Assembly: GCA_947259715.1 (NCBI GenBank)
Contig: CAMYNR010000020.1
Location: 1-48,728, forward strand
From: an uncultured Desulfuromonadales bacterium
GTDB lineage: Bacteria > Desulfobacterota > Desulfuromonadia > Desulfuromonadales > Geopsychrobacteraceae
Reading direction: 5' to 3'
DNA: 48,728 bases
Both the position numbers and the translations under genes were made by a program. Of the stretch, positions 7,279-19,459 are shown one piece after another. The notes under the pieces are model-generated. The model saw only the letters and a list, made by a program, of their open reading frames with translations. It made no database searches and was not told the DNA's origin. Position 1 is the stretch's first letter. Each line of letters starts with the position of its first letter.

Positions 7279-7440
7279 TTGTCGACCTCCCGATTGCATC
7301 AAAGCTTAGCCGATCTGCAGTTGATGGCAAGGTCGTTGACCTGAGCTGTTTTTCAGGCAGAAAAAGGCTCGGATGCCTCTTTTTTGTTCAACCTTTCCTG
7401 GCTGTTGGCGACTGATGGGGTAAATTCTTCGTCTGCAGAA

Positions 7441-7456
7441 CGGCACGCCACTTGCT
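7441..7456 (+). promoter_or_regulatory. Sigma-54 (-24/-12) promoter of nifV
   Basis: CGGCACGCCACTTGCT matches the RpoN consensus TGGCACG-N4-TTGC(A/T) at all but the first base, with the required GG-N10-GC spacing. Transcription should begin near 7467, giving a leader of about 100 nt before nifV. It is the best sigma-54 match in the window. Confidence 0.8.
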
Positions 7457-7472
7457 GTAAAAGAATCATATT

Positions 7473-7555
7473 TCTCTTCGGGCAATGGCGCTCAGCGAAG
7501 AGATCGGCAACGTAGCCCTGACCTGTGCAAAACGGTTATGGGCTTTTTAAATTTT
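7473..7555 (+). promoter_or_regulatory. Candidate ANTAR antitermination leader of nifV: two hexaloop hairpins and overlapping terminator
   Basis: Hairpin 1: TCTCTTC (7473-7479) pairs with GAAGAGA (7497-7503). Inside, GGGC/GCTC closes a six-base loop AAUGGC (7484-7489). Hairpin 2: GGC (7506-7508) pairs with GCC (7515-7517) around the six-base loop AACGUA (7509-7514). Both loops have A at position 1 and G at position 4, the known ANTAR recognition rule. A terminator hairpin then forms from AGCCC (7514-7518) and GGGCT (7540-7544), followed by a T-rich run to 7555. It shares bases with hairpin 2, so the two are mutually exclusive. Binding of an ANTAR protein would stabilise hairpin 2 and allow read-through into nifV. 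Inferred by eye, not by folding software. Confidence 0.65.
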
Positions 7556-7566
7556 TGAGGTGAGCC

Positions 7567-8694
7567 ATGAAGTCTCTGGAAAAGAAGCAGATTATCATTG
7601 ATGACACCACCTTGCGCGATGGCGAACAGACTGCTGGTGTTGTTTTCAGTCTGGAGGAAAAGAAACGCATTGCGCTTATGCTTGATGAAATTGGCGTTGG
7701 CGAGCTGGAGTGCGGTATCCCGGCCATGGGCAAGCAGGAACAGGCCTCGATTCGGGCATTGGTCGATTTAGGGCTGAACGCCCGACTGATGACCTGGAAC
7801 AGGGCCGTCATCAGGGATATACAGGCCTCCCTGGCGACCGGCGTGCAGGCGGTTGATATCTCTCTGTCGGTTTCCGATCTGCACATCCAACATAAATTGG
7901 GCAAAAGCCGCGCTTGGGTGAAAGAGCAGTTGAAGCGCTCCCTCGGGTTTGCCAAACAGCATAATCTGTATGTTTCGGTCGGTGGCGAGGACTCCAGCCG
8001 GGCTGATCTCGATTTTTTGATCGAGCTGTTACGAATCGCCGAAAATGAAGGGGCTGATCGCTTTCGCTTTTGCGACACCCTTGGCATCCTCGACCCCTTT
8101 GCGACCTACGACAAAGTGAAATATCTGGCCGAGCGCAGTTCCCTCGATTTGGAAGTTCATACCCATAACGACCTGGGCATGGCGACTGCCAATGCAATTG
8201 CCGGGATCCGCGCTGGAGCGAAGTTCGTCAATACCACCGTCAACGGACTCGGCGAGCGAGCGGGAAATGCTGCGCTGGAAGAGGTGGTGATGGCGCTCAA
8301 ACATGCCTGTAATATCGATCCGCAGATCGATACCAGCCGATTTTTAGAGATTTCCCGCTATGTCGGACAGGCCAGCCAGCGACCGGTGCCCGATTGGAAA
8401 GCCGTGGTCGGGGAAAAAGTCTTCTCTCATGAATCGGGCCTGCACGCCGATGGGGTGATTAAAAATCCTGCGAATTATGAAGGTTTTGACCCAGGGGAAG
8501 TCGGTTTGCAACGTCACATGGTCCTCGGCAAGCACTCCGGCAGTAATGGTTTGAAGCAGCGCCTGGAGCAACTGCGGGTCGATTGGCAGGGGGTCGATGT
8601 TGAGGCGCTGCTCTACCGGGTCCGCACCGCTTCCCAGCGCCGCAAGCGTGCTCTGAATGACCATGAGCTGCTGCAACTGTGCCGCGTCGCCTGA
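7567..8694 (+). CDS. nifV: Homocitrate synthase NifV
   Basis: NifV condenses acetyl-CoA and 2-oxoglutarate to homocitrate, the organic ligand of the nitrogenase FeMo-cofactor. The 375-residue protein has the DRE-TIM metallolyase signature [17 protein letters not shown] (Arg17, Asp18), the metal-binding VHTHND pair (His198, His200), the [10 protein letters not shown] motif and GLHADGV further on. The ATG has GAGGTGAG nine bases upstream. A sigma-54 promoter and a putative ANTAR antiterminator precede it, which fits nif regulation and argues for NifV over a lysine-pathway or isopropylmalate synthase homologue. The GNAT gene follows after 9 bp. Confidence 0.93.
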
Positions 8695-8703
8695 GGAGAG
8701 TCG

Positions 8704-9510
8704 ATGCAGTTTCAGAATTTAAGTGAGGCAGACTGGCGGCTTTTCATGCAATGGGCGATCGCCGAGGGGTGGACGGTGCCATTTCAGGAACAGCGGCTGT
8801 TTCAGAACCAATGGCGGCCCTATTTCTTTGTGCTGCGATCGGCCGGGCAGGTGCAGGGGTTTGTCTCGGCGGTGCTCTATAAAAACAGCGGCTGGATCGG
8901 AAACCTGCTGGTCGGACCGGAACGGCGTGGCCATGGCTTTGGCTCGGCACTGTTCGATTTTGCCCTCGATTTCTTGCGTCAATCAGCGCCCTCCCGCATC
9001 TGGCTGACAGCCTCGCAAGAGGGACAGCCACTTTACCAGCGCAGAGGATTCAGGAGTGTCGATCGCATTGACCGCTGGCGCGGCCAGGGGCATGGTGCTG
9101 TTGAGCTGGAGAGCCAGCAGCTGGTGTCTGAATTAATCGAGCTTGATCACAGTTGCTGGGGGGAGTCGCGAGCGCCTCTGCTGGCGATCTTGACGGATGA
9201 TGGCGAGATCTGCTGCAGTGGCCAGAGCCTGGGGCTGCTGCAGCCGGGGTTGGTGGCATGGCAGCTGGGGCCCTGGCTGTCGCCCAACAAATGTCCGCGT
9301 GAAAATCGTCTGCTGTTGACCCAGGCGCTGGAGAAAACCCCAGCGGGCCGCCCCCTGGTGATTGACCAGTTAGTTTCCGCCGAGGCTGGGATGTTGTTGC
9401 GCAGCGCCAATTTTGAGTTGAGCTGCAGTAATGAGTTGATGTGTCTATCCAAAGAGCCGGTCAAGCTGCAGGGGGTCAACGCGCTGGCCAGCCTGGGGAG
9501 CATCGGCTGA
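8704..9510 (+). CDS. GNAT family N-acetyltransferase
   Basis: A 268-residue acetyltransferase of unknown substrate. The N-terminal GNAT domain (about 1-120) has the acetyl-CoA-binding GPERRGHGFGSALF (Q/RxxGxG/A type). The C-terminal half (about 140-265) looks like a second, diverged GNAT-like domain (TPAGRPLVIDQLVSAEAGML). It starts 9 nt after nifV with GAGGAG upstream, so it should be cotranscribed with nifV and share its nitrogen control. A nif-related role is inferred only from this position. Confidence 0.85.
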   Translation: MQFQNLSEADWRLFMQWAIAEGWTVPFQEQRLFQNQWRPYFFVLRSAGQVQGFVSAVLYKNSGWIGNLLVGPERRGHGFGSALFDFALDFLRQSAPSRIWLTASQEGQPLYQRRGFRSVDRIDRWRGQGHGAVELESQQLVSELIELDHSCWGESRAPLLAILTDDGEICCSGQSLGLLQPGLVAWQLGPWLSPNKCPRENRLLLTQALEKTPAGRPLVIDQLVSAEAGMLLRSANFELSCSNELMCLSKEPVKLQGVNALASLGSIG

Positions 9511-18843: not shown

Positions 18844-18859
18844 CGGCATTGCTTATGCA
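18844..18859 (+). promoter_or_regulatory. Sigma-54-like promoter of the ANTAR response regulator gene
   Basis: CGGCATTGCTTATGCA keeps the invariant GG-N10-GC of RpoN promoters, with a weaker match elsewhere than the nifV site. Predicted transcription start is near 18870, leaving a short leader with AAGGAGG before the ATG at 18896. Confidence 0.5.
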
Positions 18860-18895: not shown

Positions 18896-19459
18896 ATGAA
18901 ATGTGCTCTGGTCGTTGACGAAGACGCAAGTTTGCGTCAGTTGATCGCTAAAACCCTTGTGGACTGTGGCTTTGATCGGGTGGTTGAAGCTGAATCCACG
19001 ACCCTGGGAGCCGCCCTGGCGACCTCGGAAAAGCCACTGTTAACCGTTCTGGACTTTTCCCTGAGCGGTGCAGAAGAGGTTGCCGCTGCTGAAAAAATTG
19101 GCAGTCTGACCACCGGGCCGGTTGTTTTGTTGGCAGCTGCTGGTGAAAGCGAATGTCTGGAAAAAGCTTGGGAGGTTGGCGTCAGTCAATTGCTGATGAA
19201 GCCTTTCGGCGAGGAACAGCTCAAGGTCACCATCGATACCGCCATCCATCAATTTGTTGAACTCTCGAGCCTGCAGCAGGAGGTTGATAAGCTGCGCGAA
19301 ACCCTCGATGCGCGGAAAAAAATCGATCGCGCCAAAGGGGTGCTGATGAAACAGGGCCTCACCGAGCCGGATGCTTATCGGCGGATGCAGAAACTGGCGA
19401 TGGACAAACGCAAAAGCCTCAAAGAGGTTGCTGATGCCATTTTGCTAATGGAAGATTAA
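18896..19459 (+). CDS. Response regulator with ANTAR RNA-binding output domain (GnfR/NasT-like)
   Basis: A 187-residue transcription antiterminator. Residues 1-120 are a receiver domain with acidic residues Asp8/Asp10, the phospho-acceptor in TVLDFS (Asp53) and the conserved Lys102 in MKPFG; the usual Thr/Ser switch position is Ala (VVLLAAAG). A coiled coil (122-140) leads to the ANTAR domain (137-185: KKIDRAKGVLMKQGLTEPDA then a helical bundle). ANTAR dimers bind pairs of hexaloop hairpins and prevent termination. In Geobacter an ANTAR regulator of this kind (GnfR) controls nif genes. The sigma-54-like promoter and the hexaloop leader of nifV at 7473-7555 suggest the same here. No partner kinase gene is adjacent. 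A strong terminator follows. Confidence 0.88.
   Translation: MKCALVVDEDASLRQLIAKTLVDCGFDRVVEAESTTLGAALATSEKPLLTVLDFSLSGAEEVAAAEKIGSLTTGPVVLLAAAGESECLEKAWEVGVSQLLMKPFGEEQLKVTIDTAIHQFVELSSLQQEVDKLRETLDARKKIDRAKGVLMKQGLTEPDAYRRMQKLAMDKRKSLKEVADAILLMED

Follow-up and report, generated by a model that had tools for sequence, protein, structure and literature searches.

How transcription of nifV is controlled in an uncultured Desulfuromonadales bacterium is the question raised by positions 7,441 to 7,566 of the window, the term used here for the whole analysed stretch of 48,728 nucleotides. An earlier note on this DNA had proposed double control, with transcription start governed by RpoN (sigma-54) and elongation by an ANTAR protein. 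Judged by the computable evidence, namely folding, covariation, related leaders, and a REC-ANTAR protein encoded in the window, double control was the best reading: the nifV leader is most probably a genuine antitermination leader of the ANTAR type, driven by RpoN, and a new, well-supported example of a known form of control. We assign a probability of about 0.88 to the fuller proposal, drawn from sequence, that this leader is an RpoN-driven ANTAR antitermination switch opened by the protein encoded at 18896, which would act likewise on the nifH leader of the same genome. The features are collected in Table 1.

Table 1. Features of the window and of the nifH leader in the same genome
Feature	Position	Strand	Basis
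Putative sigma-54 (RpoN) promoter CGGCACGCCACTTGC	7441–7455	+	Weighted consensus match
P1 hairpin, hexaloop AAUGGC at 7484–7489	7473–7503	+	RNA folding; covariation in relatives
P2 hairpin GGC-AACGUA-GCC, antiterminator form, hexaloop 7509–7514	7506–7517	+	Nascent-RNA prediction; conservation
Predicted intrinsic terminator, 5' arm overlapping P2 3' side, then U run	7514–7548	+	MFE of full leader
nifV, homocitrate synthase	7567–8694	+	TIGR02660, 528.6 bits (cut-off 462.9)
GNAT-family acetyltransferase	8704–9510	+	PF00583; 9-nt gap after nifV
Sigma-54-like site CGGCATTGCTTATGC	18844–18858	+	52 nt upstream of ANTAR gene; score 11.5/14
REC-ANTAR response regulator, candidate antiterminator (GnfR-like)	18896–19459	+	PF00072 and PF03861 over cut-off
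nifH leader (loci L105 and L106)	G000:C1:8917-9070	-	Sigma-54 site; P2/terminator modules, two in tandem

The sigma-54 consensus is TGGCAC-N5-TTGC, in which GG and GC are 10 nt apart. By our own weighting of this consensus, with a maximum of 14, the site ahead of nifV scored 13 and was the sole one reaching at least 13 on either strand of the 48.7-kb window; its GG and GC show the 10-nt spacing in the TGGCAC-N5-TTGC context, in agreement with the near-perfect RpoN promoter originally proposed. Because sigma-54 transcription starts about 12 nt past the GC, the nifV RNA is predicted to begin near 7467. Sigma-54 sites resembling that of the window also precede related nifV leaders. The acetyltransferase gene that follows nifV probably shares its transcript, and 22 of 45 related nifV loci yielded a homologue; in some loci (L059, L062–L064) the homologue lies immediately upstream of nifV.

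The two hairpins with six-base loops had been described correctly, both in letters and in coordinates. The P1 stem is long, having 11 bp with a 3-nt bulge, and 3 bp is the length of the P2 stem only. Both stem-loops thus have the 3 bp or more expected of ANTAR targets, and both loops, AAUGGC and AACGUA, have six nucleotides with A at position 1 and G at position 4. The linker between P1 and P2 is 2 nt long when counted from the full stem of P1 and 13 nt when counted from the inner core of 3 bp, both values being in the range of 2 to 25 nt that is given for ANTAR targets in the available text of PMC8164766. The sequence also agrees with the proposal that AGCCC (7514–7518) is common to the second hairpin and to a terminator: it can pair with GGGCU (7540–7544), after which come TTTTT (7544–7548), AAA, TTTTT and GAGG (7557–7560), with the nifV ATG at 7567, and the terminator U run ends 8 nt upstream of GAGG. 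As positions 7514–7517 belong to both predicted forms, P2 and the terminator would be mutually exclusive.

Folding, which the earlier note had suggested as a check, gave the predicted succession of structures. RNAs of 52–73 nt starting at 7467 were predicted to contain P1 and P2, and at 76 nt or more the terminator displaced P2; for the leader up to 7550, P1 with the terminator reached -27.7 kcal/mol versus -21.5 kcal/mol with P2 forced, so that the predicted terminator form is better by about 6 kcal/mol. P2 could therefore be a short-lived form that a protein would hold in place, and the preference for the terminator is no refutation, because P2 must lose to the terminator in the absence of protein for an ANTAR leader to work. 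The terminator hairpin by itself had -14.3 kcal/mol. The whole leader had -30.2 kcal/mol with a z of -1.56, and 16 of 200 shuffles were equally good; this is only a modest advantage over shuffles, and therefore folding alone is no proof. A simple consensus terminator scanner did not list the terminator at 7514–7548, probably owing to its interrupted stem. In a search of the window with Rfam 15, no match at or above a gathering score was obtained, and five matches at 7400–7600 were all far under the gathering scores.

On the present sequence data, the case for the leader is a comparative one and does not depend on folding alone. A close nifV (74–100% identity) was present in six of the 10 genomes of the genus that were searched, own genome included, and all five of the other leaders showed the same layout, with both hexaloops and the terminator. 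By a strict folding-based rule, a leader was called dual if it had two A1/G4 hexaloops and a terminator with the overlap. Of the 56 nifV leaders from the order, 24 were dual, versus 3 of 560 shuffles, and of the 46 leaders in a named set that includes the window, 14 were dual, versus 0 of 460 shuffles; the two sets share genomes (e.g., L029 and L163), and L003 and L025 are one contig. None of 39 more distant nifV-type loci (L066–L104, labelled mostly as Actinobacteria and Clostridia, some without a phylum label) was dual, their own shuffles giving 5 of 390. Leaders counted as single by the strict rule amounted to 9/46 in the named set (shuffles 17/460), 6/56 in the order (20/560) and 2/39 among the distant loci (12/390). 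Neither class applied to 26 of the 56 order leaders, some of which were matched by the covariance model described below. A cruder first rule had given 9/42 versus 1/39. A second terminator rule, by which 12 dual and 8 single leaders were counted among 46 and 3 dual and 42 single among 920 shuffles, classed the window as 'none' and was dropped in favor of the folding-based rule. The nifV leader of Desulfuromusa kysingii (L032/L202) has hairpins that read better with five-base loops, AUGGU and ACGCG, followed by a clear terminator. The nifV leaders L179, L189 and L191 contain one or two hexaloop hairpins and no terminator recognized by the rule, and perhaps act on translation.

A covariance model, R1, was built from 15 nifV leaders of the genus and its relatives. 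P1 was 91% paired in these leaders and P2 100% paired with an invariant stem; four P1 pairs were doubly changed, a number matched by 36 of 500 shuffles, and the number of pair types was matched by 172 of 500 and the covariation score by 0 of 500. R1, which is our own model and not the published ANTAR model whose use had been suggested, was then applied to 51 of the 56 order leaders (the other five come from genomes already used in training; L200 and L206 are shortened by contig ends). It matched 32 of the 51 at E<=0.01, 30 of them at 27.5 bits or more; the leader sought in related nifV genes was present. These 30 exceed the noise in the own genome, where R1 gave 34 matches, 33 besides nifV; 14 of these 33 (L114–L124, L126–L128) were taken for coding sequence from their surroundings as judged by eye, and noise in the own genome therefore extends up to 23.8 bits. 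No match above 16.5 bits was obtained in the 39 more distant nifV-type loci.

The alignment comprised 30 of the 32 matches, without L179 and L191, which scored lowest. It was fitted to R1, and hence the pair and loop counts lean towards the model; with this proviso, position 4 was G in both loops in 30/30, position 1 was A in 26 and 29 for the two loops and otherwise G, and positions 2, 3, 5 and 6 were variable. The P1 loop of relatives can thus start with G as well as with A. Double changes affected four P1 pairs, in 14 cells; the number of such pairs was equalled by 2 of 500 shuffles and the covariation score by 0 of 500. Across 29 distinct further rows, P2 was 97.7% paired. The nif ANTAR leaders gathered here show covariation, the absence of which the earlier note had named as a refutation, and no Rfam family was matched by the one in the window.

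A related arrangement was found at nifH of the same genome, where the sigma-54 site TGGCACAGCCCCTGC is followed by the modules GGC-AACGAG-GCC and GGGC-AAUGGG-GCCC. In the first module a hairpin resembling P1, CAC-GACGUA-GUG, carries G at loop position 1, and similar hairpins occur in relatives; because the P1 loops deviate, the modules were found by pattern. When A or G was accepted at position 1, at least one module was present in 43 of 54 nifH leaders and at least two in 14 of 54, versus 33 and 2 of 540 shuffles. The pattern returned 11 rows versus 10 in a reversed control, which proves nothing without terminators, and a wider pattern returned 77 rows, many overlapping, versus 30 in the control; no further leader was convincing by eye. 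A third nifH module that was listed lies upstream of the sigma-54 site and was taken as chance.

The protein named by the earlier note as the candidate antiterminator is indeed of the REC-ANTAR type, its ANTAR domain scoring 69 bits with PF03861 (cut-off 27.3), and its gene was the only ANTAR match found in the own genome, which is 77% complete. Its best solved relatives were 1s8n ('putative antiterminator') and 6wsh ('Response regulator'), the latter of which we take to be EutV. Eleven residues of EutV are reported to touch RNA in the accessible text of PMC8934654. With the numbering matched by us onto the structure alignment, seven of these 11 (R142, K143, K149, E160, Y164, M172 and R175) are identical in the 18896 protein, K147 is replaced by R, and R168, N173 and R177 differ. 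The score of the sigma-54-like site upstream of the gene was attained in 2.6% of shuffles of the 220-nt upstream stretch. Sites of at least 11.5 lay within 250 nt of 27 of 32 ANTAR ORFs, own included. In this survey the gene starts were partly guessed; two of the 34 loci yielded no ORF, one ORF (L142) does not encode an ANTAR protein, another (L138) did not lie where expected, and one genome is represented twice (L022 and L157).

ANTAR genes are associated with nif genes across the order. Among 89 genomes (the own genome plus others with a completeness of 90% or more), ANTAR was over its cut-off in 73, nifV in 58 and nifH in 55; ANTAR was present in 58 of 60 genomes with nifH or nifV versus 15 of 29 without them (Fisher p 8e-7, kinship ignored). 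In 30 of the 58 genomes it lay within 10 kb of nifH or nifV and in 38 within 50 kb, and examples of close linkage include L046 and L049, where an ANTAR gene follows nifV after about 100 nt, and L031, where it is divergent from nifV. Of the named genomes bearing nifV, 38 of 41 carry ANTAR and 3 lack it. The tie to nif genes that characterizes a REC-ANTAR protein of the GnfR type is thus seen as an association in relatives, function aside.

Given the promoter match, the hairpins, the terminator overlap, the conservation, the covariation and the gene association, we infer sigma-54 use, phosphorylation, RNA binding and read-through as steps of a control with two gates. At the first gate, sigma-54 polymerase would start near 7467 under an active NtrC-type activator. 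At the second, the nascent RNA is predicted to fold P1 and P2 first; without protein, GGGCU would displace P2, and the resulting terminator would stop transcription before nifV. The 18896 protein, which its family suggests to be phosphorylated under nitrogen-fixing conditions, would bind the P1 and P2 hexaloops, hold P2 closed and block the terminator, so that polymerase could continue into nifV and the acetyltransferase gene. The two tandem nifH terminators are probably opened by the 18896 protein as well, in which case it would regulate the nif regulon in the manner of GnfR. The sigma-54-like site at the ANTAR gene would put both gates under one nitrogen signal. If this is true, homocitrate synthase, which is required for the nitrogenase cofactor, shares with nifH an RNA-level lock beyond RpoN in many Desulfuromonadales.

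The attenuator might instead be opened by another RNA-binding factor, with the ANTAR protein serving other operons, which we consider unlikely. Such a factor would suit G002, a genome of the genus (99% complete), whose nifV and nifH leaders are of the present type and which gave no ANTAR match; this genome counts against the link between leader and protein, as do G009 (80% complete) and G086, also without an ANTAR match. It would also suit the own ANTAR gene, which lies about 11 kb from nifV with no nif gene adjoining, and the retention of ANTAR by 15 of the 29 genomes that have neither nifH nor nifV, which means that ANTAR is not only a nif regulator. However, the leader follows the ANTAR rule, with two hexaloops and G4 throughout the aligned matches, ANTAR lies near nif genes in many relatives, and a second ANTAR was not found in the incomplete own genome.

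It is much less probable that P1 and P2 control translation or RNA stability and not termination. ANTAR RNAs without terminators are allowed for in the available text of PMC3369931, and the hexaloops of L179, L189 and L191 would be of this kind, whereas in the window P2 is overlapped by the terminator, whose U run stops shortly before GAGG, and the same overlap recurs in 24 of the 56 order leaders. Least probable of all is an ordinary RpoN promoter with a constitutive terminator, the hexaloops being chance hairpins; the low z of the whole leader and the 3 bp of P2 are what chance might give, but both loops are conserved, P1 shows compensatory changes, and dual leaders are far commoner in the order than in shuffles.

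At nif genes, the combination of RpoN with ANTAR is not new to this group of bacteria. Pelobacter carbinolicus belongs to the Desulfuromonadales, as does the nearest named relative of the window (L025). In the text available from Ramesh et al. 2012 (PMC3369931), ANTAR substrates are predicted in three transcription units of P. carbinolicus that are important for nitrogenase, and nitrogenase subunits are listed among wider ANTAR targets; our leader resembles that regulon in linking ANTAR leaders to nitrogenase. The same paper, as available, has no word beginning with nif in its main text and no sigma-54 in its section on ANTAR substrates. Like the eut, nas and ami RNAs recognized by EutV, NasR and AmiR, the leader has two A1/G4 hexaloop hairpins with P2 overlapping a terminator, as far as the available texts describe them (PMC3369931, PMC8934654). 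Unlike those RNAs, it has nifV as its target, a sigma-54 promoter and a longer P1 stem, and the leaders in our alignments almost always have GGC-six-GCC as P2. In Geobacter sulfurreducens, an ANTAR response regulator reportedly antiterminates nif genes, with its own gene under an RpoN cascade, and this work of Ueki and Lovley in 2010 on GnfK/GnfR with GnfL/GnfM and RpoN is said to be the experimental precedent for RpoN plus ANTAR at nif. The present locus would be like GnfK/GnfR in placing RpoN and an ANTAR response regulator at nif genes. Accessible parts of PMC7962754 describe gnfK and gnfR as a nitrogen-fixation kinase and response regulator. A study of RpoN in G. sulfurreducens (PMC2725144) describes a promoter for RpoN at nifEN, and its text does not contain the word nifV. 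In the openly licensed literature, no ANTAR leader of nifV was found in titles, abstract openings or available passages.

The nifV leader of the window retains both hexaloops. We tentatively suggest, at rather less than even odds, that Geobacter-type nifV leaders have lost P1 and act as natural single-hexaloop ANTAR antiterminators near the 5' end of the transcript. A sigma-54 match of at least 12 was present in 15 of the 28 loci L038–L065, and in 9 of these 15 a single A1/G4 hairpin lay no more than 33 nt from the predicted start and overlapped a terminator, with none earlier (shuffles 10/750). This rule-based count was used in place of the automatic 'single' label (26/102 leaders), which includes P1 mistaken for P2, and it drops L041, earlier counted by eye. 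In one of the nine, L045, a 3-bp P1 is possible right at the start; in the others (L038, L043, L044, L046, L051, L053, L057 and L058), just 7–27 nt precede the hairpin, with a folding energy of 0 in seven. If the suggestion is true, such leaders would circumvent the current model, which requires a dimer to contact both loops in turn, and nature would offer in them a way to test the number of loops required for ANTAR antitermination; with L045 excluded, seven of these eight single-hexaloop genomes carry an ANTAR gene.
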